A stretch of DNA of 64,000 bases from Diprion similis (lineage: Eukaryota > Arthropoda > Insecta > Hymenoptera > Diprionidae), in NCBI RefSeq assembly GCF_021155765.1, contig NC_060111.1:3644981-3708980 (forward strand). Reading direction: 5' to 3'. This document shows, in pieces, positions 18,401 through 53,831 of the stretch. Under the pieces are notes generated by a model. It did not search any database, had not been told where the DNA came from, and saw only the letters and a program-made list of their open reading frames with translations. The first letter of the stretch is position 1; each line of letters starts with the position of its first letter. A program made the position numbers and the translations under genes.

Positions 18401-21400
18401 AATGTCGAACCACCAATTTCGTAATAATTAATTCTTTCCACAATCAGCCAAGGACCAACCCGACAATATACGAGGAAGGGGAAACCGGGGAAGAGGTGAA
18501 CACAACGATCACCGCGACGGATGTCGACACCGACGCCTTTCTCGTCTTCAGTATTGACTGGGACAGCTCATACGCCTATAAGAGTGGCGTTATCGTCGAC
18601 GAAGACGTGTACACGGGGTGCGTTTTTAGTTCATTGCAAATAATAAAGTGATCATAGGGGAAAATTTTTACGGCATAAAATTGGCAGGACCTTGGAAATT
18701 GAGACTTCGTATCCAGAAAACAACACTCTGTATGCTGAGGCGACGTTGGTAGTGGCCGGGAGACTAGACTACGAACAGTTCGACGTCATGTACCTCACGA
18801 TTATCGTCACTGACGAGACGACGGTCCATAACGATAATTACACCACTGGTAAGCCAATCGTCTAGGAGTGTTGTTCCCACTCCTTGTAGTCGAATTCCTG
18901 ACTAACAAGATTGTAACCCTTGTAGCGTTGCTAACCCTGCGCATCCTCGATATAAACGATAACGCTCCGATATTTGACGATTATACCGCGATGAGTGTTA
19001 CTGAAAATCAGGTTGCTGACACGCTGATTGGTAACGTTTATGCAACGGATGCTGATGGCTCTGGATACAACACTGTTACATATTATATCGTGTAAGTCTT
19101 AACAATCCAATGAGCGGAGTCTTGAACAAAAGCTCTGAGTGTCTCGATGACGTTTCAATGTTTACGCGAATGTCGGAAGGAAATCGATTAACTGATTTCT
19201 TAACGTATCACAGGCCGGCAAACGATACTGCTGAAGATCTTGTCTGGATAAATTCCACTACTGGAGTGATAAGGGTAGATACCGATGGTGCCATTGATGC
19301 TGAGACCTACGAATATTTGTATTTCACTGTTTACGCCTCGGATAGCCTTTATAATACTTCTCTGGATGTGAGTTGGTGATGATTTCATCATTATGTACTC
19401 GACTATCGCGGTATTTAATTTCTCTAATGCTTTTGTAATATGGTTTCAGATCGAAATATATGTGACAGATTTGAACGATGAAACACCTTATTTGAACACT
19501 GAAGAGTACAATAGCACAGTATATTTGAGGGAAAAATCAGAGAGTGAAACTGAGATAATGACTGTTTTTGCCGGAGACGACGACAGAACATGTGAGTTTA
19601 AAATTCCCGTGCATTAAATGTCGAACGTTTCGAGCATGGACAATTGATAATCATTCTTCGTTCGGGAATTATTACAGCTCCATACAACAATGTGTCCTAC
19701 CTGATCAACAGTGATTACAGCTCCTTATTGCAGTACTTTAGTATGGGAAAATACACTGGTCTCCTAGAGGTGTCATTGTCTGATGGATATGAACTTGATC
19801 GTGACTTTGGAACATCGAATTTTACGGTCTATTTGATTCTCAGAGACAACTACTTGGACGAGGATGTAACATGTGCGTACAGAACAGCCATACGTGACTC
19901 CTAGTTGCCGGTTAATTGGTTATACTTTTTTAAAGTTTAATTAACTTTAATTTAGGGAATTCTAACTCAATAACGACGAGCGTCAACGTTATCCTTACGG
20001 ATATCAATGATCAAATCCCGGAACTTCCTGACTTATCTGATCCCGCGGCAACCGTTTCAGAAAGTACCGAGGCTGTGAGTTTATTTTTCATGTCATGATG
20101 TACCATAAAGTTCCGATTACCTCCACATAATTATGCTTTGACGCAGTATTATCAACACTTTTAGGGCACTCTCGTTCTGACCGTAGTAGCCGAGGATTAC
20201 GACGAACCAAACACGGATAACACGAGAGTATTTTATGAGATACTCAGTGTCACACCTGAAGATAATTCTACAACATTGGACGATGATTGCGCCGTACCGT
20301 TCATAGTTGAGACTCAGAATCAGACAACCGCATTGATATATGCAAACTGCAGTTTGAAAGGCTACTATGGTACCTGGGCTGTTGAATTATACGTAGGTTG
20401 AAATACGTTTTAATTTGAAAGATCGCTCGCAGTCAACAATAACTCGCTAAAATACGAATTGTCGATTACAGGCTGAGGATCTAGGAACTGATCCTTCCTC
20501 TCAAAACGATACCAGAACGTACAACATTTACGTCGAGGACTATAACTACAACGACCCAGTCATAACTTACCCGACTGCCAACAAAAGCATTCGACTAAGT
20601 CGGGTACGGATTCGACTGCTGTTGAAGCACTGCAGTTTCCTTTATCTCGATCGACAAATAAGTAACAACCTTTCCTTTTTACGTTTGCAGACTCAAACGG
20701 CGAATTCACAACTGTATTCATACGACCTCAGTTATCTGAGTGACTTCACGGCCACTGATGAAGATAGTGGTCTCAGTGGTACCGTCACCTTTGCTCTCAC
20801 CGGCTCGGGTAACGATTATTTTTTTCAATTATTATTGCGCTGTCGATAAACGTAGTATCACATGTATAAATTTTAAATCATGTTACAGACACTGCCATTG
20901 AATACTTCACTCTTGTATCAACTGGCACTTATACCGCTCAGCTTCAGCTTTTAACGGTTCCAACCGATCTGGAAGATAATTACACTTACGAGGTATGCCA
21001 AGATAAAATCATGCCTGCACCATCAAGATATGATGAGAAATTTTGTACATCGCGTCTTAACGATTTATAGATCGAGATTTCTGTCACGGATGGTGGAACT
21101 CCGAATCGCACAACGACGCAAACCAACACGGTAATCTTCATTTCAACCGAAGGCCCCGAGTTTACTGAAAACGATTGGACTGTTTGGTTCAAAGAGAATA
21201 CTACCGGGGTGGGAACTTCGGTAACTATACCGGAAGCCACCGATATGGTCAACATCGACGCTGACGAGGAAGACTTGGTCACCATCTACTACTACTTCAC
21301 TAGCCAAGGTGACGATTCATTGTCAATGCCGAAATGGGCCCGTAAATTTCATTCCAATTTACGACAATATTTCATTCCAATTTACAGACGGTGACATGTC

Positions 21401-23332
21401 GTACTTCAACTTGGATTCGGAAACAAGGAACATGACCTTAACTACAGCGTTGGATAGGGAAGAACAGGAAACTCTTTCACTGTTTGTCGTCGCTACAACA
21501 AGCAGCGAAGGAGTTCCCGAAAGTCCCAGGGATGCTGCCACGTTAAACATCACCGTGATAGTGAGTCTTTTCACAACTCCGAATTTTGAATTCATCCACG
21601 AAAATGTAATCCAATTTGTCTTTTCGGTTTTTTTTTTTTTTTTTTTTTGTTACTCCCTAGGTGCTCGATGTGAACGATAATCCTCCCACTTTTGAAAGCA
21701 GCGCGTATTACGGTGGTGTTTCACCTGAAGACGAGGTCGCCAAAGTGATTCTTACCGTCGTGGTAGGTAACGAGAAATTGCTTTTTACATTTGTCAGGAT
21801 TGATTCTCACCTCGCTTCTTCTTTCAGGCCACAGATCCCGATCTGAACGAAACGCTGACTTACTACATGGACGATGATTCAATGAGCTATTCAGATGACT
21901 CGATTTCCTCCATCACCGATCCCTTCATTCTAGACAGTGAAACCGGAGAACTGACGCTCCAGTTTGTCCCGTTGTCCACCATGGCTGGGTACTTCGACTT
22001 TACTGTCACTGTTTACGACGCAGGTATTCGACTTTCGTTGAACAAACATGGTACTGAAATGCGTCTTCCATCCCTGATCGATATTGTTATTGTTTTTCCA
22101 GTCAATAATACCGATACCGCAAATATAAAGGTCTACGTGATCGCGGAGAGCAACCGAGTCGAATTCACATTCCAAAACACGGTTACCGAATTGACCGACG
22201 AAACGGCCTTCGTAAGTTTCATCCCCATGCGTCTAGTTGGCAGTATTATTGTGATTCGTTGAAACGCCTCGTTTCAGGTGATATCATCGTTCACCAACGC
22301 GTTTGGGTACATCTGCAACATCGACTACGTGACGAAGGCTCTTGACGACGACGAGATCACTAGTCTGGACAACGAAACAGTTGTCACTACCCACTTCATA
22401 AACGAGGACACCAATCTACCAGTCACGACCGACGTTATCGTCCTGTGAGTATCCATGATCGATATATTATGCATACCGGAGTGAATAATTTCACAAATCC
22501 ATGATTCTTGCATTTTCAGAGCGTCGAATGACCTCCAGACCATCACCGACCTAAAAGTCACCCTGCTGACCAGATCGTTGATCCTGATCGACGTGCCTTC
22601 CAGTAGCTCCACCACCACTGACAGCGTCGAGTACATCATTCAATCTGTCCTCATAGTCCTCTGCGTTATTTTATTCGTATGCTGCATAGCTCTTCTCACA
22701 GCCTACATCATCAAGACGAAACAGTTAGTAGATTGACACCGAATAAGTGATAAGTAATTCCTCTATACGATGTCACAAATTTATTCCGATTACAGGCTGA
22801 CCGAACGGCTCGACAAACTGGCTGTTACTAACTTCGGCTCGCAGAGTTCGGGATTGAACAAGATCGGAGCTGTTCCGATGACGAATAAGTTCGCTTTAGA
22901 AGGTTCGAATCCCATGTGGAATACTCAGGAAAAAATGCCCGAGGACAGGATCAGGTGAGAGAAAATATTACCGGAATAATTTAGCGAACTAAAAACCGAG
23001 CGTGAAAATAATTTGTCATTCATTTTCTCATCACAGTCAGTACAGTAACGATTCGGACCTGATCGGAATTGAGAATCATCCGAACTTCTCCTACTCCAAC
23101 AACGGATTTTCAGGGGAAAATTTCTGGTCCGAGGGGCCTCGGGTAATTAGTAAATTAGTTCAGAGAACTTGGCGTGATGTTCGATGTATGTCTGACTTTA
23201 AAAATTTTCCGTCATTCTTCATTCCAGGAAAGTGTGAACCCGGTTATGTCGAATCAATTTGACGGGAGGTCGGATAATCGGATGCCGATGTTTCTGCAGC
23301 AGAACAAAAACGTCCCTACGACGGAGCTGTGA
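15432..23332 (+). CDS. Cadherin, cadherin-23/BtR-type midgut cadherin-like, 1667 aa
   Basis: A single-pass calcium-dependent adhesion protein. Exons: 15432-15492, 15582-15737, 15826-16082, 16206-16295, 16371-16511, 16841-16960, 17032-17107, 17185-17465, 17630-17803, 17877-18070, 18170-18374, 18448-18617, 18688-18848, 18926-19091, 19214-19367, 19450-19591, 19678-19872, 19956-20074, 20165-20392, 20472-20603, 20691-20808, 20889-20992, 21071-21308, 21388-21560, 21661-21762, 21828-22023, 22102-22211, 22278-22444, 22520-22723, 22796-22954, 23037-23142, 23228-23332. Phases agree throughout: 5004 nt, 1667 aa. Residues 1-20 form a signal peptide (MAAEVCLGLFISLVFCIGRA). About 11-12 cadherin repeats follow, with linkers NIDDNAP, VEDINDHTP, NWNDESP, VIDVNDVPP, ILDINDNAP, VTDLNDETP, LTDINDQIP and VLDVNDNPP. 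The membrane span is about 1515-1541. The roughly 125-residue tail has FALEGSNPMW, a motif shared with cadherin-23-like tails. Length and layout match insect midgut (Bt-receptor type) cadherins; the exact orthologue is not certain. Confidence 0.93.
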
Positions 23333-31900: not shown

Positions 31901-33872
31901 CATTCACGGCCCTGAGGTCCGCTCTACTGAGCGGCGAACCCTGAAATAACAAGGAAGAACACGAGGTGAAAACGAGAGTAGAGGGAAGACCGAGGGGCTA
32001 ATTACTCATCGATTTTATGCACACCTGATTTCAAGATTACAAAGGATTTCAAATGATTACAAAAGATTTCAAGGCTTTCAAAAGATTTCAAATGGTTTCA
32101 TTAAATTTCAAGAGATTTCAAAGATCACAGAAAATTTCAAATATTTCAAGAGATTTCAAAGACGACAGAAAATTTCAAATATTTCAAGAGATTTCAAAGA
32201 TCACAGAAAATTTCAAAGTTTTAAAAGGATTTCACAAGATTTCCAGAAAAGTGTACATCATATTTCACGAGTGATTAACTGACGAGGATCGTTTAACTCA
32301 CGTTCAGGACCGATATCTTGGGTAGATTCTGCAGCATCTTCCACTCCCGCCGTATATAGTCAACGGCGCCGACTATAACTACATGTTTAAGCTCGTGGTA
32401 GTGAAAATTGGAAGCTCTCAGTGGCATTACTAGGTTTCTCAGTCCGATCAGGGGCGAGTCCGGATCGGCAAAGAGGCAGACGACGACGTGCCCGTTGAGG
32501 ACCGTCATGGCCGCCTGGTTCCGGTCCAGGATACAGTCTTCGAGGTTTCGCGCCGGGCTCCAGTGGAACATTCCGGTCGAGTCGTACTTCATCTCCGTCT
32601 TCTCGAAGTCGAAGTCCTTCGCCTGGTCGTCGGCTATCCCGACCTGGAGACCCCCGTTGTTGTTCACGTTGTTGCCGCCTGAGCCTCGACTCGTCGGCCT
32701 GAAACGAATGCGCCGAAAATGTTTTAGCGATCCGCCGATGTTCTCCTCCTAATATCGTTATATTCGACATTCGATCTAGCGGAAGAGAATCTCACCCGGC
32801 AAAAGTGTGTGAAAAAAAATCGTCCTCCGTGAGATACGGTCAAAATTTGAATCAAGTGTAGATAACCGGGCACGGCATAAAAAATTTTTTTAACGCATGC
32901 AGGACCTTTCTCATCCTTCGTTTTTTATACCATCTATTTTATGTCAATTTTTATTTTACCCGAAATTCAACTCTACAATACCTTATTCCCATATAGCACG
33001 CATGTGGCGTAAAGGCAGAGTTTTTTTTACAAGAGTTTGCAAAAGCGGCAAAAGCATGCAAGATATTGTTGTAATACACGCAGGTACGGATCAAGACACG
33101 CGAGCTGTTTAGCTACCTTATATTTTGCATAAAATATATAGTGTGCTAGCAGTACGTATGCAACGTATTAATCACGATTAAGGTAGACAAAAGTACCATC
33201 AACGTGTCACACAAACACAAGATATTTTTTTCCACATTCTCTCTCCACGTACAAAGTATAAAACGTATAATAAATAATAAAGAAAGAAAAAGGAGAAAAA
33301 AAATACAACAACAGTGTTAACAGCATAAGCGTACATGAGTTTTTTGACTTCGTAGGCGAGATGGTAACCAGAGTATGCAGACTCCTCTTGCGATCTGGAA
33401 TCAGAAGGTGTGATTTCACGTTGGTCCCTCCTAATATAGATAGGTATGTACATGATGTGTAGTTTAATTATGACAGCTCGATAATCTCTGCGTGACATAT
33501 CATCCGATTATTCAATTCATATATTCAAATATTATATACAGGAATTAATGGTGTGGATATAAATCCTGGTAATGGAGGAGGAGGTGGAGGAGGAGGAGGA
33601 GGAGGAGGAGGGAGGCGGTAGGTTAAACTAATTAATTTCTTTTTTTTTTTTTTCTTTTCTAATGTAAATTCTGCTATCGTAGCTGGTTTTGTGACAATAT
33701 TCATTGACAACTGGAATTGGTGGTGACTTTTTGTTTTTCTGTAAGAAAATCGCAGTAATTTGAAAAAATAAAATGAATATAAAGAAGCATATGAATTCTG
33801 GATCGCAACAAAGCTGAGGTATATCATTAGTGAGCTTGAAAATAATGAACGTATGTAAAATTATGACAACAG

Positions 33873-34460: not shown

Positions 34461-37400
34461 TACCCATAACTATACCTTTCGATTACGGTAAAGAATAAAA
34501 ATGGTTAAATAATATATGGACAGTAATAAAAACTTGAAATTTCTCTCGGTGTATAAAATCATTATACATTATATAGGTGTGCATGTATAATTGTAGCAGA
34601 GATGAGAGAGTGAGTGAAATTTTTTTTTCAACGTGCAATACATATATGCATATATGTAATAGTATATATATATGTAATAAGATATTGATACCAAGCAATA
34701 TATAGCAGTTAAAGAAATGTGTTTATTTAATATTTTCTTCTTTAAATATAATTGAATAGAATTTACTTGTATAATCTTAATCGATTTCACGTATCCATAT
34801 ACTGTAAAAATTTCAATCGATAATAATGACTTTCGTAGATTTATAAAATAAGTGAAGAATGATGATTATAAAAAGTATATTTATCTTATAAAAATCCATG
34901 AAAATACTATCGTGTGATTTTCAAACGTGGCGCACCATTCAATGTTAAACAATTGCCTGGTATTTAAATATTGTGAGGTGATATATCGACCGATGATGAA
35001 TGCCTTAATTACGTCTAATGCAGGATGAAAAAAATTTACCGCGCTGTATAATAATCGAGTGACGAGGGAGAAAAATGAAGAGCAAAATGAAAAAAAGAAA
35101 AAGAAAAATTTGACGGAAATTCGAAAATTTACTCACGGGATTCTCGTACTTACCTCTGATTGTTGTACGACTGATTCGGACTGGACAAGCTGTCGTTTGG
35201 CGTTCTGTTGACGTTCGGCTTCACCTTGTTGACTTGCTTCGTCGAGTTCATCAGCGTCATGCCGACCGAATTTCGATGATTTCTCATCGCTGGATAACAA
35301 AAAGGACCAAATTCATCCCCGACTTTTTTGCTTGTAATTTTGTTTAAATAATGGAAAGTCGTAACGCCTTTCAACTCACCGTTCAGATCGTCTCGTTCTC
35401 GGCTTATCTCACCTACAACGAAGAAAGCGAAAATTATATAGCGGCTGGATGTCGATGATCATTTTTTTTTTTTTTTTTTAGCTAATCATACAAGTGCAAG
35501 CCACAGTGCATTTTTAACCTTTTTTAATGCTTCAATATTTTTCCGGGATTACACTTCCTTCGAAAAACGGACGATCCAACCAATCGCCGTAATTGCATGT
35601 ATAGAAATTCTATGATTGTGAGTTTCAACGCGATCCCGGTGGTGCTGATTAAATCTTTTATATGTGCATACGATGTCTGATTGACAGCGTTTTAAGGGGT
35701 CTATCCCTTAGGTTTTATCAAGAATTTGAAAAAAAAGAAAAAAAAATTCTTGATAAAACCCTTTTTTTTTAGCTCATCAGTTGGGTAGACCCCTTAATAA
35801 GCCTCGAGTGCATTTTATAATTACAAGTATATAATATATACCTATACAAAGCTATTATCTTCGTTGAAATCGAGAAAAAAAACAACCGTGTGTCTGTCAA
35901 AAAGGATTTGCATACACCTCGCGATTAAGGACGCGTTGTCGTGAAGCAAAAAACTTCACTACAGCGAATTTGGCGGCGTATAAAAATGAAAAATGAGAAA
36001 TTAGAAATGAGAAAATCAAACAGCTTCGCACCCTGTCCCTGTCGAGGAGTGTAGGTATATGCAAACCCCTTTGACCTGGCCCCAAAACAATAATTCTTTT
36101 ACAGTTTACAATAGAACTACACTTTTACTGTATAATAATCTACTTGTGCAGCCATTCAATCTCGTAATTTAAATTCTATAATTTTTCAATTTTTTTTTTT
36201 TCCTTGCTTTTTCTTCATTAAACATTTCATTATTTACTTTCTCGCTTTGTCAAGTTAATCAAGCACTTTTGCATGCAAACGATCATTTATTATATACATA
36301 TATGTAAAACACAACACTACGTATTTAGGTAAAAACGTTATATTACACGACCACGGACATAGTCAAACATCATATTTTGTCGAATGATAATAACATGCGA
36401 TTAATAAAACGTATTTCAATGTAGCAAAAAATAACGATTACAATAACAGATTCAATTTTTACAACCTATGACATTATTTTCTTTTTTCCTTTTCATTTTA
36501 TTATTTTGTTACTTTTTTTTTTTTTTTTTTTTATAATTCGAACTCGATACCGACGATTTTTTTCTTTCGATATCAACTATCATGAATCTCAATTAATTGT
36601 CTTGTACGGAAGGATTGAACATAAAATTCGTCCAGCTTTAACCGGCATAAAATTCCGAAAAAAAGAAAAAAAAAAAAAAGTGAAAAATAAAAAGAGAAAA
36701 GTTGTGAAATTGGAGTGAAAGCTTGCTGCATGCACGCGATATGTGCAGGGATACACCTATATATATATATATTCTTATTGCTAAATGATTAACGGTGTGT
36801 GCAGATGTTCCATAATAATTATATAATAACAGCCTTGCGACTCAAACTGTAAAACATTAGTAAAATAAAATATTGAGGTGAATATACGGACCTTCCTCGT
36901 TTAGTGAATAAAAATTCACTTTATAATTATTATAATATATGATAAAAAGGAGGAGGGAGTGGAGGGGGGCAAAGTGGGCACCTTAAAATTTTCAATATCT
37001 CAAAAAATTTGGGGGCAAAGTGGACCCCCTGAAATTTTTTGTATAACAAGGAATAAAATTAACTAACTTGAACCTTGTATTAAATATGAATTATTCGGAA
37101 ATCATTTACTCGAGTAATTGCACAGCTCGTAAACGCGAAACGTTTCAACTTGTGCTTTACTCTCGACTCGTCAAAGTGAAATAATTTTCTGAACATGAAT
37201 TTATGATAACTTTTTCTCGATAAAGCTAGATAGTTAATTAAATATAATTGTTCGTATGAAAAGTAAAGATTTTATTCTGATTTCAGGCATTATTTTCTTA
37301 AGGGGCCCACTTTGCCCCACTCTCCCCTATACACTTATATGTATTTATACGCGGTATGAATGTTCGGAAAGCGGGTTACGGGTTGCGGGAGCTTAATTTT

Positions 37401-38908
37401 CAAGCTGCTGCGGCAGGTCTGAATGACAGAGGTGTGACTGTACCTCGCACGTGAACCATCTTGGGTAGTTCTGGCGGAGTGAATGTGGGGGGAGGATGGT
37501 GGTCGTCTGTAACAAACCACTACACATATTAGCTACCCTATCCTATTTATCCACTACTTATACGCTAGTTTACCAGAATTATAAATCACCCTCGAATATA
37601 GAAAAAATATATATAGAATTATTGATTTGAAGAAAAAAATTTCTCAAAATATTTTATATTTCATTATTTGACAAATTTTCTACACAAGCAGCATTTATAA
37701 AAGAATTCTAGATATTCTCCTACTTTCAAACACTTTTATAAACGAGTTTACTGAAATTTCAGAATTTTCCGACAAAACGGGAGAAAATGCAGAAAAATTA
37801 TTTTTGCAGATTTATTTATTTTTTTGCTTCTTTTTTATTCTTTCATCCTAATTTATATCATTTGAAAAAATTCCTTCGCAATTTCGTTATTTATTTATTT
37901 ATTTCTTTATCGATTCATTCGTTCGTTCGTTCGTTTGACGTTATAACCCGAACTGCTTGCGTACAAAAGAAAAAAAAAAAACAAAAAATAATCGTTCGCA
38001 AAACACGAATGCAAGTATGAAATTAGAATTTGATCGATATATCATATCCTGCACGATCATGAAATCGAGATTCAATCTCTCTATACTCGTGTTGTGCGAA
38101 GATTATTTTTCTGGCTGTTTTGAAATTTTCTTCCCCTTAAGTTTCTCAATATGTATTATAGAGATACATAATATTGTATATATATATATATATATATATA
38201 GATTAAAATGTATCGTGCAAACTCTTAACTACCATAAATATTAAAATATAATTATAGGTACATATATCTACAATATCATTATAGAAAAGCTTCGATTATG
38301 AAAAATAGAAAAGAAGAATTCAAATTTTTTACGTTTTACTTTCGTTTCTCGATATTACATAACAGAATACAGAAAATATTTCGAAACAATGTGAACTACA
38401 TTGATCATGCTATAGGTATGTATATAGAATTAAGAGTAACAACGCATTTTCAAACAAATTGCAGCTACATGTTAATTCAAAGGCATTATTCATGATATAA
38501 TATATATATATAGTGATACAAGATCGTGCGCATACCTACTATATTCATATATAATATGTGCGTATATCGTGTGATACTGAAAACAATGTCTACTGTGCGT
38601 TAGATTCGTGCGACGTAAGAAGTAAAAAAAAAAAAATATATATATATAAATAATTTGTGCGCAGGTATAATACACGTATTAATTATAATATAAAAAAAAA
38701 AAAAAAAAAATAACAATGTAAGCGGTGAAAATCGTATTTTTAAGTGCGTTATAGAAAATTAATTATCAGTGAATCAAACGTGTAATGCATCAGAGTATAT
38801 ATAATTTATATGTATATATACACATCAGGTAAAAGGTATATATAGCGAGGTAGACGCATTAGCAGGTATAATATAGGAAAATAGCGGTGACATTTTCGAG
38901 AAAAAGAC

Positions 38909-38943
<35 letters not shown>

Positions 38944-41900
38944 AAAAATGAGAAGAATAGATAGATAGATAAATAGATAGATAGATAGACAGAAATGGGG
39001 AAATAGAAAAAGAAAGTTAGGCAAAGTGTGAGAAAATTAGTGCAAGTATTAAATGTTATATAAGGTACATAAGCGATATGTACGTAATTACTCACTGCCA
39101 GGATGTTTTTTTTTTTTTTTTTTTTTATCGTGTGGGATTGTGGGAAAGGAATATAATTACACGGCATATTCTCGCTATATAATACACAGTTCTGCGCATT
39201 TACCGGGATACCGTAGTATAATGTATGGTTGTTTCTTTTCTTTTTTTTTTTTTCTTTTTGACATTTTTGCAACGTAAAAGATAATGATAAAAATAGAGAG
39301 AATTGGAAGAAAAAAAAAAAAAAAAAAAAAATGAGTACATCGTTCGTTAATTTGGCTGCAGATAACAAGTGCATTTTCTTCATCGGTATGTTTCGCGAAA
39401 GATTCACAAATCTGATGATAATTTTAACCCGGTAAATGTGCAAAGCTGTTTTTATTGTTGAGTTGTTTTTTATTTTTGTTCTATTTTCTCTGTTTTACGT
39501 TCTTTTTGTTTCTCTCGATTGGGGGCGGGGGATGATTTCTTTCTTTAACTATCACACACAGACAAGTTGGCCGATAGATAGGTACTAAACTCTACTAAAT
39601 CGGGGTTACGATAGCGTTGTACTGTAATTGATGATTGTTTATAACATAGAAAATCCTAGCCGCATATATATATATATATGAATATTAAAAGAACGATACA
39701 ACATGTGTTGAATAAAAATTTCCTCTCGCAGCATTTTTTTTTTTTTTTTTTTTCTTTTTTTTCTCTAATAACGCAGGTATATTATATTATACATCGCATT
39801 TGAATAACGTTACTCTTTGACTTATTTAACAATTAAGTATCAAGTGTAGAAAAAAAAAATATATATATATTCTTTGAGTATATATTGTTGTTTGAACGGA
39901 ATGGAAGAGAACAGAAAAAAAAAAAAAACAAAGAAAACCAAAAATTATACAAACAACAAATAAACGAATGAATGAAAAAAAAAAAAAAAAAAAAGAAACT
40001 TTATAACGAGTGACAGCGATTATTATGTATAAGATAAAGTGAAAGATAAAGAGGTTTTGGTTGCCTCTTCAAACTTACTTGCATACGAGAAGTCCTCACC
40101 TACGTAGTAGAGGACGGAAGGTAACAGGCAGATAGATAGACATACAGACAGTTAGTATATATGCGTATAATAAATAGAAACGAGTTGACGTTTATAAAGT
40201 ATACTATACATATATATTAGGATGGCCCTTATTTGGTGGTGATAAATTTTTTTTTTTTTATTGGTACACCCTCTAGATGTGTTTAAAATCGTTGAAGAAA
40301 AAAATCTGTGCAAAATTTCAAGCCTCTGCGTGAACTGGAAGACGTGCTTCTAAGTTTCGAAAGTCTTAAGTGTAAAGCAGTTATTTCGTTTTTTATGACT
40401 TTGGTATGAATTGAGAGACAGATTTGAAACTTGGCAGAGATGTTGCTTATGATGATAAGAACAAAGCGTGAAAATTTAAAAACCTTATAATTATTGTTCT
40501 CTTATACAATATAATCCTATAATAAAACGTGATGTTATTGAGCTTATATATATATAAAAAAAAGAAACATGTTATAAAATTAGAAGATTTTGAAATTTCC
40601 ACGGTTTCTTCCTATAATTATAAGCAAAAACTCTGCCGAGTTTCAAATCCATCCTTCAATTTATATAAAAATCATAAAAAACGAAATAACTCGTGGTTAT
40701 AAGAACGAAATATATTTTACATTTAAAGCTCTCGGAGTTTAAAGACACGCGTATTCCAGTTGACGTAAAAGCTTGAAACTTTACACAGATTTTTTTCTAA
40801 TTATATGAAACACATATGATGGGCGTCCCAATAAAAAATTTTCTGCCCACCAAATAAGAGCCACCCTAACATACATATACGTATTTTAATATCTATACGT
40901 ATATGTATATAGCTATGTATATATGAATACATGAATAAAAATATCCGATATGTCTAATAATAATAATAATAATAATGATTTTTTTTTTTAAATAATGGAG
41001 GGGAGGGGGTTACATGAAAGTAAATCAACGATGTATGTATGTACGAAGTGTCGCGTGTTTCCTTAGCAGTTGTGTTCTAATGAAATGATATAATTATGTA
41101 ATCTACAGAGCTATATTGTTATATATATATATATATTCATTATCGTATAATATATAATATGCGGTAGCGGAGAAAAACTTTCCGTCAATTGTAGTACACG
41201 CGGGTAATATGAAAATTTATGTTTAACTATTGAAGATAGACTTTTTTCATCATAATAGGCAAATTTTTAACTTTTAACTTTAAACTTTGAAATATATATA
41301 TATATATATATACAATTGATGGTGATGTTTTTCTCCACACACCGCATAAAAACGCAACTAACCACCTTTTCCGATTTCCACTATGATTTGAAGCTTCGAC
41401 TACTACAATTCCATCAAGCTTGACAACAATCATAATTTTGCCTGCCCTGAATAACACGTATATGTACGTATCGTGTATGAATTTTTTGAGAAAACATAAA
41501 AAAAAATTTAATACATATGTATGTATGTAATATATTATGCATATATAAGACATCGATGCATAAGAAAAATATACACGTATACGTATAATATTTATTTATT
41601 ATTGATGTACTAATAGAAAAGACTATATGACATTTACAAAGAAAGGAAATAAAAGAAGAAGGAAACACAAAAAAAAAACAAGAAATTAAAAAAAAAAAAA
41701 AAAAAAAAACAACAGGCTTCCGGAATTGATAAAAAGTAAATATTGAAATCGATTTCCTTGTAGGTAATTTTTGAAAATTACCTTTTTTCTTTTCTTTGTG
41801 AACCTTTACGTTTTAACGGTAATAACGAGATATAAAAAAAAAAAAAAAAAAACCATTTACGAAAATACACATACAAACCTTGACACAATAAACAATTCGT

Positions 41901-42890
41901 TAACTACATTCCAACAATTGTATGTAACAACGTGAACCAAATTAGTTGCAAAAGAGTTGTAACGTAACAACGACGAGAATAAGTGAAGTCAAGTAAAGTC
42001 TGATAGAAAAAGAATAAAAAAAATCAATAAGTTGAAAAAAAAAAAAAAAAAAAAAACAGGAAAAAGATATAAAAATGAAAAATCAAATGACAACGAGAAG
42101 ACGAAGAAAACGAACAGGTACATATCGTAAAATACGTGTCGTCAAACCTTAAAGATGAAAAAACAAGTTGACAAAAAAAAAGAAGAAAAAAAAAAACCAA
42201 AGGATAAAACACCACATCAATACGGCGCAAACACTATAGTATATTAAACATGTTATTACTACGCTGGGGCCAATTTTTCTTTTACTTTTATCCCTCCCTC
42301 CTTCATAATCCTTCTTTTCGTACCTAATCTATATTAAACTTCCCACGTACAACAGGCTAAACATTTATTGTTATTTTGGAAAGATTGTATTTCTCCATCC
42401 ATACCCTATATAATAATTGTATGTATATATATTATATGTATATGAATAAAATTTCGTGAGCAATCCTCCCTGCATTGATAAAGAAAAAAAAAAAAAAAAA
42501 AGAAACTAACCTACAGATAACGGTTGTTAACTTTGCAATCGCAAAAAATATTTCAATCGTATAACGATTTTTGGCTATATTATGCCATCGCAACACGATT
42601 ACATTTACGTTTCGTCTAATTCTTGTTTTTATGTATAACGGTTGATTATTTATTTATTTTTTTTTGCTAAATTATTTGTCCCGAGAACAAACGGTGTTAG
42701 AAAATAATATTGTTACAATTAATTTGCCGTTATTATATTGTACCGATATACCTACGAGTGTATTGTATATTATATAATAATAAAATATATAACAGATGAA
42801 GATGAGTGTGATTGTGAGACTTGATTAATCCAATTGATCCCAACGACAAAATATATACGTTAAATAAACGAAAAAAAAACAAATAATAAC

Positions 42891-42922
<32 letters not shown>

Positions 42923-43413
42923 GAATAAGGATGTAACGCGAACTGCGATCGGAACGCTGGAATTACTTGAGAAATAATTTAAGAATTTAAATTGGGCATA
43001 AATTTGTATACCAATTGACAAACGATTTACAAAGAAAAAAAGAAAAAAAAAAAAAAAATTCACAATTCAACGAATAAAATAATCTATTCTTAATCAGAAT
43101 CGTAAATGCAGCTGTGTGTACATATTTTTTCCGTTTACAAAAAAAAAGAAAATTAAAATAGAACAATATTATTTGTCAAAATTTTCTTAACATTATCGAC
43201 GTTTCAAGATTCTTATTTCGCGAATATTTTAACAATCTCCGATCTAACTAAACCACGAATATGGACTGTAAAATTTTTAAACAGATAAAAATCATCCGAT
43301 CCGCATCGACAGTCGACACCCACGAGACGACCGCGACTTTTTACGACGGACATAATATCTTACGAGTAGTGACAAAGATGACAATGACAATAACAATAAT
43401 GACATAAATGACA

Positions 43414-43471
<58 letters not shown>

Positions 43472-46400
43472 ACCGGGAACACACGAGACACAATTCTACT
43501 CTCAGTGATACGTACTTGCTCGTCCGACCATCTGAACAGCCCTCACGCCCTTCCGGAATGTGGCCACTGCCCGAATGGAGAAGAGAACCAGAGCTGTTAG
43601 TCTTCACATCAACAAATTAATTTCAGCGTAGATTCGGGGCGTACTTTTGGTATTTTTTTTTTTTTTTTTTTTTTCTAATTTGTTTCTCTTACTTCATTTT
43701 CCCATTTTCATTTTTTTTTTTTTTTTTTTTTTTGTTCTGTTTTTGGTATTTGTCTTTTCTATATCGATCTCTTTTCATCCTTTCTTATTTTTATTTATTA
43801 TTATATTTGTTTGTTTGTTTTTCTTTCCCAAGCTTGGTCTCGTTATTATTATTGTTGTTGTTGTAGTGTTTTTTTTTTTTTCTTTTCTGTTCTTTTCTTT
43901 TCTTTTCTTTTCTTTCCACCTCGATTCTTACATCGGCTTAAAATATTATTATATCAGGCCTTTTTCAAATGACACTGTATATATATTTATATATACGTAT
44001 ATATTGTACAATATGGGTCTCCGCAGGGTCTTTGGTCTTTGCTCTTATGCTCTTTGCTCTTATTAAACTGCAGCCTCAATTCGACAGGTTAAACGTATAT
44101 AATTTTTGTATCATTTAATACCGTGATCTGTTCTTACACGCTATTCTATCAATCGATCAATCAATCCAATCAATCACTCCGCTTTGCTCTTTTTCCTCTT
44201 TGCTCTTCCCTCTCCTGTATTATTTATAATTACAGATCCGCATATAAAACCGGCGCCCTCCATCAAACCTCACTCGACTGTATAACAATTCGGATACAGC
44301 CTGACATGACATCGCGATAACGTAACGTAACGAAACGAAACGTATTCTCATAAATTTTCCTACAAACTGTATCGCTGAATTACAGAGCAAATTTCTTACA
44401 TCCTAATTTAACAATACAAGTTTTCGATCTGCGTTCGGAAAAAAAATTGTGGACAATTGTGTGGTTCTGTTTCTGTTTGTGCGTGTGTAGTGGTGATAAT
44501 AATATTTATAACAATAATGGTAAAAAAATAAATAAATAATAATAATAATAATTGTTGTTGTTGGTTTTTTTATGAGAGACGCAGTGCGATGAGAGACGTT
44601 GTCAATTTTAAACCCTGGGCATCGAATCGATCATCATTTCATGTATCATAACAATTGATTTGAATAAAATATTTATAAAAAAGATTATCGTCAATTCTCG
44701 TACGAAATTGCGCAAAGCCTTGAAATTGTTGATATTCCTCTAGGATTATATGCAATGATGATGAGAAGAAAAAAAAGTAATAATATATAAACAAAACTCT
44801 TCACTGCGTATCACATTCATAGATATATCTAGATAAATATACTGCCCTTTCCACGTCATTAACAGCTCTGATGCATTTTATTTAGGGTCTCCCTAATTTA
44901 GGGTGTTGGCGAATTTTTGCCACCCCACCACCCAAATCAACTTCAAATAATTGGAATACAATTATCTAATTTTTTTAGATTCTTACCTCACTCTAAGACA
45001 GTCGCGTTTTTTGGTCGAAGTTTCTTATGGAAATAATATAGGAAATACTTTTTTTCTCAGTATATATTTTATTGTAAAAGTAATAATGTTGAAAAAATTT
45101 AGTAACCGTGAGGTTTTGGTCGGCATTAGTGCTACTGTCTGGGAAAAAATTCACATAATCATACAACGCAATCTCGAAGAATCGCGCACCCTCGAAATCT
45201 GACGTTTTTTTGCATTTAGAGGAAGTGCAATTCGTCTAGATTTACTGGTATAGTGATGTAAATTTTTTTACAGATAGTAGCACCAATGCCCACTAAAACC
45301 TCGCGGTTACAGATTTTTGAAAATATTATTACTCTTGCAACAAAATATATACCGAGAAAACAAGTTTTTCCCATGTTATTTCCATAAAAAACTTCGACCA
45401 CAAAGCGAACTATCCCCGAGTTGAGGTAGAAATCTGAAAAAAAATTAGGCAATTGTTTTTGAATTATTTGATGCTGATCTGGGGGATGGGGCGGTAAAAA
45501 TTCGTCAACACCCTAAATAAGAACCACCCTAATGTATATACCACGCATCGGTTCTTTAATAATAAACAATTACAGCTTGACGAATGAAATTATTATTTTT
45601 ATAATTTTTCATTTTTATTTTGTAACATGCGCGTCCCTAATTGACACGATTTATTGTTATACGTATTGGTTAAATAACGAAGCGCACACTTAAACAACAA
45701 TCAATTAATTACACAAGCTCCATTTATACACATTGTTCAGTTAATTAATTAAGCTCGGATAAATAATCTGATACAGTTTAGAGAAAAGCCGAATTATACA
45801 AGGGGTTACACAAATAGGTTATACGAGTAGACAAATTAAAAAGTGGATAAATTTTTGGAATTTACAAGTCCGCAAGCAATTGTTCAATTCGATTTCGATT
45901 TCGTTTTACTACACATATCCAAAGGATGAACGTATATGAAGCTTCGTTTGCACATTACTATTATTACAATTATTTATTTTTTTTCTTTCTTTCTTTCTTT
46001 CTTCATATAAAAATATATCATATTTAGTAAAAAAAAAAAAAAAAAAGGACTCAAGATCGAATTTTAGTGATATAACGTATTGATCGATGGATTGTATGCT
46101 GGGATATTGTTAGAGTGACAGGGTAAATATTCAGGTAATATGTAATCGCAAAAAAAAAAGGATGCGTGTGAAAAATATTCCAGTAATAAGTAAAAACACT
46201 AACGCCGCTTTGGCGGTAATCGTGTAAGACGTGTGTGTGTGGGGAGGAGGGGGGGGGGGGGGGGGGCACAGGAATCGGGTGATTACGGGGTGGAGGGTGC
46301 GTTTGGAAAAGGGGTGTTGAAAAGAAGCGTACCGTCAAGGTAACTGCGGTAGGCAGAGCCCCCCTTCACCATGCCAGTCTGCATCATCATCATCCCCACA

Positions 46401-47316
46401 TCTGGAAAAAGCCAGTTTGTTCAGTGTCAACCTGACGTAGGGTGGATGAAGTAAAAAGGATAACAAGTCCAGGGGTCGATAGTCTCAGATTTCATGTCTT
46501 TTCCGATATGTTAATAGACATAGACTGAAAATTAAGCGACAAGTATTTTTTTCTTAACTGCCATTAAACAGTTCAAAGGGGTGAAAGCACCCTTTAAAGT
46601 ATATAAAGCATGTCGAGGGATGATTTGAAATTTTTTTTTTTTCTGTTTTTCTAACCGAGAAAATAACATTTTTCAGTTGTCGTTACGAGGAAACTTTTCC
46701 AGTTGAATTGGGTAAAAAAAAATATTATAATATTCTTGTGGGAAGATAGAAGGAAAGAGAAAAATAAATTAAAGTACATACGTGTCGCTTAGTTTTTAGT
46801 CTAGTATAAGATATTAGAAAAGAAACGAAATCGGAGATATCGTCCTGGGATATAAATTCCTTGTTTCGTTCGATTTCCTAATGTACGATTATGCGATATT
46901 ACTATAGAGGTGTAACGTGTAATATAGAACAACATTCGGATGGTGTGGTGGAAAATTATTTTACAAAAAAAAAAAACTAGTTTCTCACAATTACTTCGGA
47001 ATAGGTAAGGGATGAGAATACGATACCCGGAATTGAGTGAAATTTATGAATCTCACATACGTATCAGTGACGTCACACTGTATTATATCAAGTGTAAAAT
47101 AAGGGTGTAGGTTGAACGCGTAAACACGGAATGTGTGAGTTGACAGAAACACAAACGCAGAGACACACTCTGAGATCATAGATACGTGGCGTAATGTTTA
47201 ATCAATCTATTAATCTATGAACCAGGTAATATTATATGTACATATGTATACCGTATCTGTATACACTGCAGTGTATATGGGGTATTCCGCGCCAACTCGA
47301 CCAGTGTTAAAGCCCG

Positions 47317-47353
<37 letters not shown>

Positions 47354-48944
47354 CAAAATTCCGAATTAGATGATACAAAAAAAAATTCACCCGAAAAAAT
47401 GGCCATTCGCAATTGATTTCAAATATTTATAAAAATGAAAATGTTTAATGAAAAAATTTGAAAAAAATTCAGGTCAGTTTTTTTTTTTTTACCGAGTAGA
47501 AAAAGTTAGAAAAAAACATGAAATGATTTTGATATGGTCGGGGCTTAACACTGGTCGAGTTGGCGTGGAATACCCTATATAGAGTATATGACGAAGTAGG
47601 TACATGTGTTCTATTCATCGCAACATTTGCCATTATTAGGTACATACATGTATTTTTATTATTAGATACAACATCAGCGGCAAAAACGGTCCAATGATAC
47701 TCTACACGTCTGTATTATTTTATAACATCTCTAATATTGTGATAGAAAATTATTAAATTGTTATTACGATTAGTGTTACAATAGTTGAAGAGGAATTTGA
47801 ACTGTGAACTTCACAGCTTTCAAACGTTTCCTTCGTTTGCCCAGGGTTTAGCTTGATATTAGTCTGCGATTAAAATAATTAGAACAGTATTTAGGTTACA
47901 TATATACTTAAAATCGTTGCCGGTGCAATTTGGTTAATTATAATTTACCGCGTTAGCAAAATTAGGTATATTTATAATTTGCGTGGATAACGAATTTGAG
48001 AACGAATTGCAATTTGAACTGAGCTTTGTAATCGACAAAAGAGGAATGATAAAAAAAAAATTTTTTTTTATAATATAATAATATAAATAATATATAATAT
48101 ATGTAAGTGCAAGTGTAAGTATATGGTTCGTGTATAATGAATGTGTATATATGTTACAAATTTTTCATAAACGTTCATTTTTTCCTTTCCATTTCTTTCC
48201 TTTCCCTTTCTCCTCGCCACCTTAGCTGCGACACTTATTGAATTATCCGTGAATTATTGTTACCCACACACTGATTCGGAATGTATCTTCTTCGTACTCC
48301 TTTATCCTAACGTGTAATACATACAGCAATAAATAACGTAAGCTTTGAATTGAAGGGATAAAAAGATGATGATAAAATAAAATTTCTTTTTGTTTTCTCT
48401 CTTTTTTTTTTTTCTTTTAAATAAATAAACAAGTTTAAAAAAAAAAAAAAAAAAGACAAAGAAAGAAAGTAACGACCGTGAACCTAATACGCTGGAACGT
48501 TATCGTAGCGAAAAATAATGTGGAAGTAAGTTTGTTTCGTCTTTTTTGTTTTTTTTTGTTTCATCAATGACAGCTGTCACGCTATATATATATATATATA
48601 CAATGTATAATAATAGCAGGCAAGAAAACATGGATTCCAGGTTATTTATGGGTGTACAGAGCCGTTAATTACACTACGGCATCGAACTGTTCTTTTGTTT
48701 TTTTGTTTTTTTTTTTTTAAACAAGTTCAAATATAACAATCACTTCCATTGTTAACTATATTATTATTTATGTTAACCCGAGAGCTATTTTCATGCAGGC
48801 AAGGCGGACGGAGGGCACATGACAAAGTGCAAGCTAGTATGTTATAATATTTATATATCTATGTATATATACACATACACACATATAAGTATATACATAT
48901 TGTTCGCTAGTCAGGCGGAAATTAATTGTCGCTGACTGAACGAT

Positions 48945-48975
<31 letters not shown>

Positions 48976-49150
48976 GTATTTTCGATATTATTATTATCAT
49001 TATTATTTTTTTATAACTGAATATTTTTTTTTATTGCTTTTCAAAAATTTGAAACAATCTTTTATGTTAATATAACACGATAACGATTAAATGGAATATT
49101 GCGCGACCAGCGTTGCAACATATTACATGTATATAAATAACAATATATGC

Positions 49151-49181
<31 letters not shown>

Positions 49182-50145
49182 AACGGATGGATCTATACAT
49201 ATATATATATGTATGTATATAAGGAAATTTTTTGTGTATATACGTATACATATATATATAAAGTATTGTTTTTAACGATAATGAAAAATAATACGAGATT
49301 TATCATGTGATTAATATCAGGGTATTGAAATGCAATAATAATTAATCAATAACTGATCGATTGCAATTAATCTTTACACTTCTCATCTCCGTTATTGCTT
49401 AATACTGTGTACCTAATAGTCGTATCTGCGATGTATTACACCTCAACGTATAATACGTAAACGTAATATAACGGAATGAAAAGAATGGACGAGAATATTT
49501 TTGTTTTTACTGAATTTGAAAAAACAAAATTTTTTTTTACCTCCTCTCTCTCTCTCTCACTCCGTTAGATTGACTGACCGTGAGAAGAGAGAGTGCGGTG
49601 TGAAAAAAAAAGAAAAGAAAGGAAAAGAAAATAACAATAAATTCAAAATTTTTTTTTTTTTTTTTTTGCAAAAACACAAACAACCGCGAATGATCGCATG
49701 ACTGATGAATACATCCGCGGTATTGACCAATATATATGTATAGAGGGGGGGTAATGGATAATAAAAGATTAAATGTATATAAGCAAGTGGAGAATAGTAT
49801 AGAAAGAGATAGAAGAGAATAGAGATAGAGAGACAGACAGAGAGAAGATAGATATTATTGTTATATATGTATATGTATACTTATCGTTGTTATATGTATA
49901 TTTTTATAGAATAAAATAGATTATTAGAAGAAGTAAGAAGTAATGAAAGAAAAAATAATAATATTAGGAATTATTATTATTATTATATAATATATAGTAT
50001 ATATACGTTATATATAGGTATAAGCGAGCGAGTAGAGACCAAGAGACGTTACCTAGGTCGCGGCCCCAGGAGCGCTGCTGTTGCCCCACTAGATCACAAT
50101 ATATCACAAGAGCATTGTATCAACCATGTCGTTTGTGATTTTCTG

Positions 50146-50176
<31 letters not shown>

Positions 50177-53100
50177 TTCATTTTTTTTTTTTTTTTGTTT
50201 GTTTGTTTCATGTTCTACTTCACAGCTTCATCATCATTTTGACATGATAATTATTTTTTTTCTCATTTTTTTCATATTCCGTTTCGTTTTCGATTTTTTT
50301 TTTTTGTAAGATATTTTCGTTAAAAATAAGTGACACTTTTTTCCATGTTCAATTATTGTGCAGAAATAGAAGAAGAAAAAAAAAAAAAGAAAAAAAATCC
50401 CTCTCAAACTGAGGATGTGTCGTTGGTTTTTTTTTTTTTTCTATTTTTACTTTTCTTTTTGCATTTGTTTCCTTTTCGATTTTTTTTTTTTTTTTTTTTT
50501 CCCCCCCCCCCCGCAATCCAAACACGTCACAGTCGTTTATACCGCACGGAATTAACGTTAACGTCGACTCTGAATTCTGTCGTTTAATTGACAAATTATT
50601 TTGTACCTATGTATGTATGCACAGGTTATATACATATATATTTTTTTATTATACATATATTCAGGTATATCACATCTGTGTATCGTAGATGAGGAATACT
50701 TGTATATATGTGTGTATACATATATGTATATATGTATGGGGTTAGCCACGCCCAACTTGTCAGTAAACGGTTGATCATGAAATTTTTTTTATTTCATTAG
50801 AGAATATTTTCCACGTCGGTACGAGGTTTGAAGGAACTGGAGAAAAAAAAATTTCAAATTTCTTTTAATCACTCGTTTTTTGATCTAAAAAACAACCGAA
50901 TTGGTTTATGCGAACCGAGAATAAAATAACAATAAGAAACAAACAAAATCTATTTCTTCATCTATTTTCACATCAGTTTGAATGTAGTATAAAAATTTTG
51001 AAAAAAATCGTCACGATCGCGTTTTAGAACGAAAGAGACGATTTCAAAACAGAAAAAAAAAAAAAAAAAGAAATCAGTGATCGAATCGGAGATCCGATGT
51101 GTATTGTATAATAACGATGTTAAAAAGAAAAGAAAATAGAAATAACGATTAACGAAAAATGGAATAGAAAAGTCCTTCGTTTAAAACAAAACGGAACACT
51201 ATTTTTCCTTGGTTTGGAAAAATCAATTTCGATACTTTTGAAATGTGTGTTAAAAAATTCTTGGGAGTGTTGACTTGGGAGTGATTAAAAAAGAAAATAA
51301 GAATTTGAAATTTCTTCCGCAAGTTTTTCAAAGGTCGTACTAACAGAAAATCCTTGATGATGATATTAAAAAATTTTATGATCAACCGCGTACTGGTCGT
51401 GATTCGGCGTGGAAAGCCCCGTGAAAAATTAACGAATAAAATGGATAAAGTTATTTCAGGCGTGTTAAGCCGACGCGTTTGAGTGTCGAATTTTTCCCTC
51501 CCTTATACTTTGCAGACACCGTACGTATAACATTTTATGAAACCAATTACAGTCAATTCGCGACATAACGGCACTTTAAGGAATCGTTTGTTTGTTATTA
51601 TGGACGTTAAGACGATACTATGAGAAAAAAAAACAAAAAACAAATAAACGGAACGTTAATATCGATAGGAAAAAAAATCAATCAAATTTATACGCGAATG
51701 AGTTTACGCAACATATTTATTTGCCCTGAATTAGTTTCATTGAATTTTTTTTTTTTTTGTCTGTTTCTACTTCTTTAGTTTCTTCGCCACGTGATTGAAA
51801 AAACTTTCTATTCGGAATCAAAGATCATCATCTCACCGGAGATTTTTCTACACAATAAAGAATGGGGTAAATCCCATGATGCGGTTTTATGTATCTATGA
51901 TATGTATACCATATCACGGAGAAGCGAATATAGGCAATATAGAGACTTATACTATAGGTATATATAAGAATGTTATATTGAACGATGGTAATGTTAATTG
52001 TGAATTGAATAGACTTACAGTTTTTGCATTTGCATTTCTTGATCAAAGTCTCATCTTTGATGTCGTCGTGGCAAGCTTTGCAGTAAAACCACGCTCTGAA
52101 AATATGAACGATTGTCACGTTCTTAATCAAGTATCGTCGGTATTCCCGCACCCCGTTTCACTGCACATATTAGGGTGGCCAAAAAAAAGTGACTATTTTT
52201 TTTTTTCGTTAGTCAACGTGAAAATATCGTTCAAGATGACGAAAATAACTATTTATGTGGCATGCCCGTAAACCGCCTGTTTTTTTGGCAAGGATAAAGA
52301 TTTTAGGACGAGCTGAAGGTGAGCCGGAAGCGAGTACTGAAATTATCCGAGCCAAAAAACGGTTTACGGGCATGCCACGTACAATATTTTTTACGGTATG
52401 GGCATTGAAAAGCAAAACGAAAAGTGAGGTTATGCCGCGATCTGTTCGACGAAGCTACTTTATTCGCCAGTTTGGGATGCGCACTTCGAACTGCGCATCA
52501 AAACTCCGGAATAAAGACTTTATTCCGCAACTTTTTTCACTACCGTATAAAGCGTCACTTTACGGAACGAAAACTGCCACAAAAAGTGGACTTTTCAATG
52601 CCCATGCCGTAAAAAAAAAAATTCTGTAAAAGTTTGAACTCTTAATAATGATATTAATAGCTGCCTATTTGCGATTTTTTTCTCTGGAATTTTTGATCAC
52701 ACTTTTTTTAGTCGTTTCAAAAAACAAAAACTCGATATTATCAAAATTTCACCAAAGCCCCCCCCCTTAATAGTAAGGGAAACGATACTTCGAGGAAACG
52801 AAACTTTGATCAATCTGTATACAGTATTGTGGAAAGCACATTTCACCTAAGTTTGCAACCCGATTATGTGTTACGAAACACACGCGAAAATCAGCTCGTC
52901 CGCACTTGCTCACTGCCGAAACTTATCTGCCGAAATTCGCGCGTTCGAAGTTATCAAACGGCACCCGGCTGCCCCCTGGTTTTCAGCGCAGAAACTATAT
53001 ATATTCTAACTATGAACCGCGTCTTTGACAACACAGATCGCATCGTGAAATTTGACGTTACCTAATTTTTAACCTCAAATAACTTTTGAACCAGTAGATT

Positions 53101-53831
53101 TACGAAAAAATCGCAAGAGATCTTTTTTGTTGATCGTCCAATTTCCTTCTAAAATATAAATTGTTCTTTACGATACGCCAATCCGTTGCTGAGTAATAAA
53201 ATTCCAAAATCAAAAAAGTAAATAAAAGGGAAAATGGAAAATCACAAATAGGAACCTCTTGATATTAATATTAAATTTTTTTCGTCGTCTTGAACAATAT
53301 TTTGACGGTGACTAACGAAAAAAAAAAAAAAAAAACCTTTTTTTTTCTTTTGGCCCACTCTAATACATATAATAATAATAATAATGATAGCAAAAATAAC
53401 AACAATAGTACCGTCAATAATGAAGCAACGTCTAAACTCACCGCTTCACCTCGTCGGCTGATTGAGCAATAAAAAATCCCTGAGTGTTCGCCGCGATCTT
53501 TGCTCCGCGTGGATTGATCGAAATCTTGCTATCGTTCCCGGCGTCCCCCTTGATCTCGATTGCCAGCAGCAATAGCTTCAATTTCGTGAAGCACAACCTG
53601 GGCGAAATATCGTTGAATAACATAGGATATGCTTGTGTAACATCTCGTTGGGTCAATATTCAGGAGCGCGTTATTTCTTTTATTTTATTTTATTTGTTCT
53701 TTTTTTTTTTTTCTTCAGTATCCAATACGATACTAGTTAGGAAATATTTTCCCTGCGCCAAACGTTTGCATTCTTCAAAACTCAAACGGGTGGCTTTCCT
53801 TTCTTTGATTAATTTTATTCACATTTGTGCC

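Follow-up and report, generated by a model that had tools for sequence, protein, structure and literature searches.

Background

BK channels help to set firing patterns, and the splicing of the BK linker has long been known. In vertebrate KCNMA1, the alternative insert STREX lies in the disordered linker between RCK1 and RCK2, where it alters gating and kinase regulation and switches the regulation by PKA (PMC4122160). In C. elegans slo-1, several alternative sites exist within one BK gene, with three sites, twelve possible isoforms and choices that interact (PMC4039745). The linker of the fly channel, C631-E777, is disordered (PMC8660915). A different kind of precedent is provided by m1 and m2 of Ubx. 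These exons are short and in frame, and a 5' splice site is re-created by the bases with which they begin (PMC8605326).

The insect slowpoke gene described here very probably carries an RCK1-RCK2 linker composed of short frame-neutral cassettes, set between a donor and an acceptor that are both in phase 1, from which few regulated linkers would be made; this reading is drawn from genomic sequence. It has the same gene and the same place as the Drosophila slowpoke linker, and differs from slo-1 in that its short symmetric exons follow one another in a row. A full-text literature search for six peptide strings returned no paper, and these exons are not described in the titles and abstract openings of the literature matches listed.

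The slowpoke locus and its linker exons

The window, that is, the whole stretch of 64,000 nucleotides of Diprion similis DNA analysed, contains the slowpoke (BK alpha) gene on its minus strand. The best PDB match of the gene is fly Slo, 7pxe, with 335 bits (next distinct PDB sequence, 173 bits), and its RCK2 is slowpoke-like, matching Pfam Slo-like_RCK. When the fly sequence was used as query, residues 23 to 648 were matched on C7 with a small gap, and the match ran through residue 1150 in the window, so that the exon set from the voltage sensor to the C-terminus is found at a single locus; the search of the 269 Mb genome gave one slo locus. Near 91.1 kb there is also a real alternative exon for S6, part of which had fallen among the controls used below. 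No Rfam match was obtained in the window, and the RCK2 exon was not found in viral contigs. Its sole match among bacterial and archaeal contigs, L014 (a Zoogloeaceae MAG), was short and weak, with no convincing linker exon, and was discarded.

The linker region has a GC content of 30%. Its exons and candidate exons, in the order of transcription, are the following:

53442..53597, minus strand: RCK1 exon preceding the linker (89% identity to fly Slo by tblastn)
52019..52095, minus strand: last RCK1 exon and start of the linker, 77 nt, containing CKACH, with its donor in phase 1 (96% identity to fly Slo; matched in PDB 7pxe)
50053..50088, minus strand: 36-nt candidate cassette, phase 1-1, probable (AG and GT flanks, open, GC 0.72 amid 30% GC)
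46333..46401, minus strand: 69-nt cassette, phase 1-1, first residue Y or D, very likely real (best of 355 candidates)
43516..43566, minus strand: 51-nt cassette, phase 1-1, orthologous to a fly segment (rank 3 of 355; 0 of 2365 controls as high)
40079..40099, minus strand: 21-nt candidate microexon or ratchet site, xEDFSYA, beginning AG/GTGAGG (own donor 9.8)
37444..37506, minus strand: 63-nt cassette, phase 1-1, putative orthologue of a fly segment (weak donor)
35380..35412, minus strand: 33-nt exon, phase 1-1, beginning AG/GTGAGA, a recursive-type start (strongest splice sites of 355)
35154..35289, minus strand: 136-nt linker exon, phase 1 to 2, containing KQVNKVKP as in fly (splice sites scored, joined in frame)
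33335..33394, minus strand: possible 60-nt phase 2-2 cassette, weak (best of 65 candidates in its intron; total 14.3, codon score 0.7)
32302..32698, minus strand: end of the linker and start of RCK2, phase-2 exon (89% identity to fly Slo; Pfam Slo-like_RCK)

A preliminary description of this DNA had proposed six linker units of 36, 69, 51, 21, 63 and 33 nt, and these were borne out: each has a unique place on the minus strand, AG and GT flanks and the expected length. Its claim that any subset can be combined in frame was confirmed as a formal freedom only, all 64 of the 64 combinations translating stop-free through the RCK2 exon. All six units are indeed of phase 1-1, but this is not independent evidence, because a cassette that lies between two phase-1 sites and keeps the frame can only be 1-1, and the property is thus implied by the flanking phases. 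The introns of 2-6 kb that had been described are obtained when the 36- and 21-nt units are skipped (5617 and 6009 nt); otherwise the individual introns measure 1930-3651 nt (in order 1930, 3651, 2766, 3416, 2572 and 2031 nt), plus a last one of 90 nt between the 33-nt and the 136-nt exons. The linker continues past the six units, with the 136-nt exon leading from phase 1 to phase 2 and then the phase-2 RCK2 exon.

The units are positioned between the CKACH exon and RCK2, as a STREX-like linker exon would be. STREX is one Cys-rich insert of 58-59 residues, whereas the insect units have 7-23 residues; no Cys-rich insert of the STREX kind was found, the six translated units containing 0 Cys, and Cys appears only where the upstream exon is joined to 21 or to 33.

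Unequal standing of the six units

Splice matrices were trained on 21 acceptors and 19 of 20 donors (one excluded because its coordinate was wrong), all of the same gene, and the units were compared with 2365 cleaned control candidates taken from other introns and the opposite strand. The cleaning removed 8 intronic codons from one training piece, as well as the partial S6 exon from the controls; before it, the number of controls at or above each unit, out of 2378, was 0 for 69, 1 for 51, 1 for 33, 25 for 36, 33 for 63 and 38 for 21. The six units are not of equal standing: as judged by their sequence, 69, 51 and 33 are exceptional, since none of the 2365 controls reaches any of them, 63 stands by homology, 36 stands in part and 21 does not stand as a coding exon.

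The 51 and 33 units correspond to adjoining segments of fly isoform J (7pxe), which passes straight from the counterpart of 51 to that of 33 and has none for 63. All 17 residues of 51 are identical there, the counterpart of 33 is DITRDREDTN, and the up-51 and 51-33 junction codons of the window give L and S, as in isoform J. The 69 and 21 units differ from the fly linker in having no counterpart in isoform J; the 69-nt peptide has no relative in PDB at E 10, and the unit is nevertheless very likely a real cassette. The orthology of 63, and in part that of 36, to fly segments is put forward as probable. The 63 unit, as high as which 27 of 2365 controls score, shares 17 of 20 residues with the fly linker (tblastn E 1e-14). 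We take the isoform with LTVQPRSKFDDLDEHHPAP.. to be a second Drosophila slowpoke linker variant; this isoform presumably has a 36/63-like segment in place of 51, and LTVQPRSKFDDL is assumed to be the fly linker segment at the place corresponding to 36. An exon like the fly TVQPRSKFDDL was also sought on the minus strand and rejected, its best ungapped match lying at 55457, upstream of the RCK1 exon and in the wrong order; in the same search on the minus strand of the window the other nine listed matches were weak.

That 21 and 36 are chance open AG..GT intervals rather than exons is a reading which falls a little short of being probable. For 21, scored as a coding exon, 33 of 2365 controls are as high, which is no better than chance, and several such intervals are therefore expected among 355 candidates; its recursive-type start and strong donor nevertheless argue against chance. 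The 36 unit has weak sites and ranks 51 of 355 by splice score, rising to rank 8 once the codon score is added, with 19 of 2365 controls as high. Against an accidental origin, its codon score is equalled by 1 of 512 length-matched controls, it shares 6 of 12 residues, that is, half, with LTVQPRSKFDDL, it fits that segment best among 212 AG..GT-flanked open 36-mers, and the junction residues L and D are both reproduced; the identity has to be read with the caution that, of 109 control 12-mers compared with that set, 19 have a best match that is just as good.

How the linkers may be chosen

The preferred reading remains that of short frame-neutral cassettes. Splice regulators would pick among few linkers, by alternative routes such as "51 then 33" and "36 plus 63 then 33", and the chosen peptide would alter the length, charge and modification sites of the disordered tether between the calcium sensors; the altered tether may then tune gating or the binding of partners, in the manner of vertebrate STREX. 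Most or all of the five or six tiny exons are probably optional. Alternative modules are suggested because isoform J has 51 and 33 and the second isoform has the 36/63-like segment instead of 51. The combinatorial module of the preliminary description thus stands in part: short symmetric cassettes do lie between RCK1 and RCK2, and fly isoform J has 51 and 33 without 63, but the use of all 64 combinations is not supported, and few regulated linkers, not 64 free ones, are to be expected.

A stricter version, towards which we incline slightly, has a few fixed linkers, with 33 nearly constitutive, 51 mutually exclusive with 36 plus 63, 69 a rare insert and 64 a mere arithmetic upper bound. It agrees with the two fly isoforms, which are nevertheless a small sample, as well as with the strong sites of 33 and the 90-nt intron after it, and the choices in C. 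elegans slo-1 are not independent (PMC4039745). No feature enforcing exclusivity was found in the window, however, and the cassettes are not mutual duplicates: among 15 peptide pairs none stands out, the best case being matched by 26 of 200 shuffles, although in peptides this short an old duplication could escape. As for inverted repeats that might act as exon-choice loops, among the 25 longest of 1655 pairs each of the four best is confined to one intron, and those with wide spacing coincide with runs rich in A/T.

Membership of the eMIC/SRRM234-dependent neural microexon programme is very improbable. The gene encodes a neuronal channel, the units are short and keep the frame, the acceptor is weak in 36 and 21 and the donor in 36 and 63, and TCTC or CTCT occurs at most 25 bases from the acceptor in three of the six. 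Fly eMIC exons, however, are described as flanked by very short introns and as carrying UGC in the vicinity of the acceptor (PMC8797185), whereas TGC is found within 25 bases of the acceptor in none of the six units and within 60 bases in two, and the introns before each unit measure 1.9-3.7 kb; the main text of PMC8797185 does not contain the words slo or slowpoke.

The start of 33 and 21, both with AG/GTGAG after a pyrimidine tract, appears to be new here. As in Ubx, the acceptor is directly followed by donor-like sequence (AG/GTGAGA and AG/GTGAGG), so that a 5' splice site would be re-created once either exon is joined to the one upstream, and a second step would then settle whether the exon is kept or removed. 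Recursive splicing of this type, by which the 51-nt microexons of Ubx operate (PMC8605326), is considered unlikely for 33 and 21, in spite of several points in its favour. At the ten possible junctions the regenerated site scores 5.9-10.8, the 19 real donors spanning 5.7-11.9, and at 16 other slo junctions, some of which have an exon in common, every regenerated GT site stays at or below 3.6. The individual values for 21 and 33, respectively, are 5.9 and 6.6 after the constitutive exon, 7.8 and 8.5 after 36, 8.2 and 8.9 after 51, and 10.1 and 10.8 after 69, with 10.1 for 63 to 33 and 8.9 for 21 to 33. Moreover, the minus strand of 114 kb contains 11 AG/GTRAG motifs, of which those of 33 and 21 alone have at least 10 pyrimidines in the 14 bases before AG; on the plus strand 0 of 18 pass this cut-off, and when the linker region was shuffled 300 times two or more such motifs arose once.

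Against recursion, the motif and the cut-off were picked post hoc, after inspection. When the matrix rule is relaxed, 60.6 kb of the plus strand yields 3 passing sites and none of 458 control acceptors on the minus strand passes, from which about 0.5 would be expected in the linker; the matrix itself is rough, since one non-GT junction scores 6.7. Furthermore, the own donor of 33, at 12.1, exceeds every regenerated site, so that donor competition predicts inclusion, and the introns here are of 2-6 kb as against about 73 kb in Ubx. An extension of the same idea, a stepwise assembly with memory, is less likely still: with 33 and 21 recursive, the regenerated site would take its last three exon bases from the preceding cassette, the upstream choice would thereby bias the retention of the next microexon, and the choices made in each BK transcript would be coupled.

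Significance

In flies as in vertebrates, it is in the RCK1-RCK2 linker that optional segments are found. The present locus gives exact coordinates for such a linker, ranks which exons are sound and makes the word "combinatorial" countable. If the exons starting with GTGAG were recursive, the sequence by itself could let one splicing choice determine the one after it.

The slowpoke gene and its surroundings

The window (C7:3644981-3708980, C7 being its contig) lies in a genome of 269 Mb and 60 contigs, and its minus strand carries the slowpoke (BK alpha) gene, the sole close match found in that genome; three faint matches besides are located on other contigs. Among solved structures, fly Slo isoform J (PDB entry 7pxe) scores highest, with 335 bits to 173 for the next distinct sequence, which points to an insect gene. 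Two versions of one RCK1 exon (62374-62262 and 58562-58450, minus strand), by appearance a mutually exclusive pair, show 89% and 71% identity, respectively, to one fly segment. Outside the window, the same gene has another alternative RCK1 exon pair (C7:3717121-3717243 and C7:3719003-3719131) and three candidate versions of an S6/pore-to-RCK1 exon (C7:3741489-3741647, C7:3736012-3736125 and C7:3726858-3726956). The neighbours in the window are:

2-4480: satellite array made of 14.7 copies of a 304-bp unit, with 97% matches
6940-7575 and 11982-12494, minus strand: open pieces of a perilipin-like gene, matching Pfam Perilipin at E 1e-20, with the second under the curated cut-off
21225-21680, plus strand: Cadherin-domain stretch (Pfam Cadherin, E 4e-7)

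Anatomy of the linker

The linker between RCK1 and RCK2 runs from the last, constitutive RCK1 exon (52095-52019), through six units and a 136-nt exon (35289-35154), to the RCK2 exon (32698-32302), all on the minus strand. The RCK1 exon includes a CKACH motif, discussed in human BK as a heme-binding site (PMC12346439).

Linker units (minus strand): rank among 355 candidates by splice score; rank by splice plus codon score; controls (n=2365) scoring equal or higher
36 nt, 50088-50053: 51st; 8th; 19
69 nt, 46401-46333: 4th; 1st; 0
51 nt, 43566-43516: 2nd; 3rd; 0
21 nt, 40099-40079: 9th; 11th; 33
63 nt, 37506-37444: 7th; 10th; 27
33 nt, 35412-35380: 1st; 2nd; 0

The preliminary description had proposed six phase 1-1 units combinable in any subset. 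Each is present once at its place with AG/GT flanks, and all 64 of the 64 subsets are open from the RCK1 exon past the 136-nt exon through the RCK2 exon. The common phase was also borne out, yet it is dictated by the flanking phases and is hence no evidence in itself. Beyond the module, the 136-nt exon shifts the phase from 1 to 2, in which the RCK2 exon begins. The introns measure 1930, 3651, 2766, 3416, 2572, 2031, 90 and 2455 nt; the 33-nt exon thus stands 90 nt from the 136-nt exon, the preceding introns being kilobase-sized. The last one holds a further possible cassette:

33394-33335, minus strand: 60 nt, phase 2-2, fair splice sites, neutral codon score

Long imperfect foldback repeats (45005-45407, 44882-45532, 40379-40691 and 47274-47581), each within a single linker intron, are perhaps mobile-element remnants.

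Soundness of the units

The slowpoke gene itself supplied the training data: 21 acceptors and 19 donors for the splice-site matrices, and its remaining exons for the codon score. Within the linker region, all open phase 1-1 AG..GT intervals with a length of 15-90 nt served as candidates (n=355); controls came from other minus-strand introns (842) and the plus strand (1523). The 69-nt unit is the strongest by sequence, and the 21-nt unit, as a coding exon, is indistinguishable from chance. The 63-nt unit has a fly counterpart yet scores poorly, so a low score cannot exclude an exon. The six peptides are mutually dissimilar, the best of 15 pairs being equalled in 26 of 200 shuffles.

The fly linker in 7pxe reads KCKCKN, an 18-residue segment and DITRDREDTN, which corresponds to the window's 51-nt unit immediately before its 33-nt unit, the 63-nt unit being missing; the window's junction codons yield L and S, as in 7pxe. 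The demonstrated set comprises the anatomy, the open frames and two units corresponding to a solved fly isoform. The 63-nt peptide shares 17 of 20 residues with a fly segment. The fly segment preceding this counterpart is LTVQPRSKFDDL, whose 36 nt are a coding length rather than a mapped fly exon. The 36-nt peptide has 6 of 12 residues in common with it, both junctions reproduce the fly residues, L and D, and among the open 36-mers with AG..GT flanks, 212 over the two strands of 114 kb, the unit matches best. Against it counts that, within this set, 19 of 109 control 12-mers find a best match scoring just as high. The 36-nt interval is probably a real linker unit. For the 69-nt peptide, a PDB search up to E 10 returned no relative.

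Recursive-type starts

Both the 33-nt and the 21-nt unit begin with GTGAG, immediately past the acceptor. When either is joined to upstream exons, the regenerated 5' splice site scores 5.9-10.8 (ten junctions), against 5.7-11.9 for the 19 real donors on the same matrix; at a further 16 slo junctions, some of which have an exon in common, regenerated GT sites all stay at or below 3.6. One non-GT slo junction reaches 6.7, so the donor matrix is rough. The minus strand of 114 kb has 11 AG|GTRAG motifs, and those of these two units alone show at least 10 pyrimidines among the 14 bases that precede AG, a cut-off chosen post hoc. It is reached by 0 of the 18 plus-strand motifs, and when the linker region is dinucleotide-shuffled, at least two such motifs occur in 1 of 300 shuffles. 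Under a looser matrix rule, 0 of 458 minus-strand control acceptors pass and 3 plus-strand sites in 60.6 kb do, which puts the expectation for the linker at about 0.5.

In sequence, these starts resemble those of the 51-nt microexons of Drosophila Ubx, which are kept or excised via regenerated 5' splice sites, the outcome being partly set by donor competition (PMC8605326). By that rule, retention should prevail for the 33-nt unit, which has a donor of its own scoring 12.1. The donor of the 21-nt unit scores 9.8, and its regenerated site 5.9 after the constitutive exon and 10.1 after the 69-nt unit; by analogy, its inclusion would hypothetically depend on the previously joined exon.

Possible role of the linker

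Alternative splicing of slo, linker included, was reportedly established by fly work of 1992-1994. Possibly new are the 69-nt cassette, both recursive-type starts and the exact set of units that this species has; among the papers listed in searches of an open-access library, a weak test, none treats them.

The three splice sites of C. elegans slo-1 allow twelve isoforms, with interdependent choices (PMC4039745), which argues against free combination in the window's linker; regulated skipping would probably yield a few linkers. In vertebrates, the STREX insert, located in the same linker as the insect units, shifts the sensitivity to both voltage and calcium and switches the regulation by PKA (PMC4122160). 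The cryo-EM structure shows the corresponding fly linker (C631-E777) to be disordered (PMC8660915), so what the cassettes alter is probably the tether, in its length, charge and sites of modification or binding, and not the folded gating ring.
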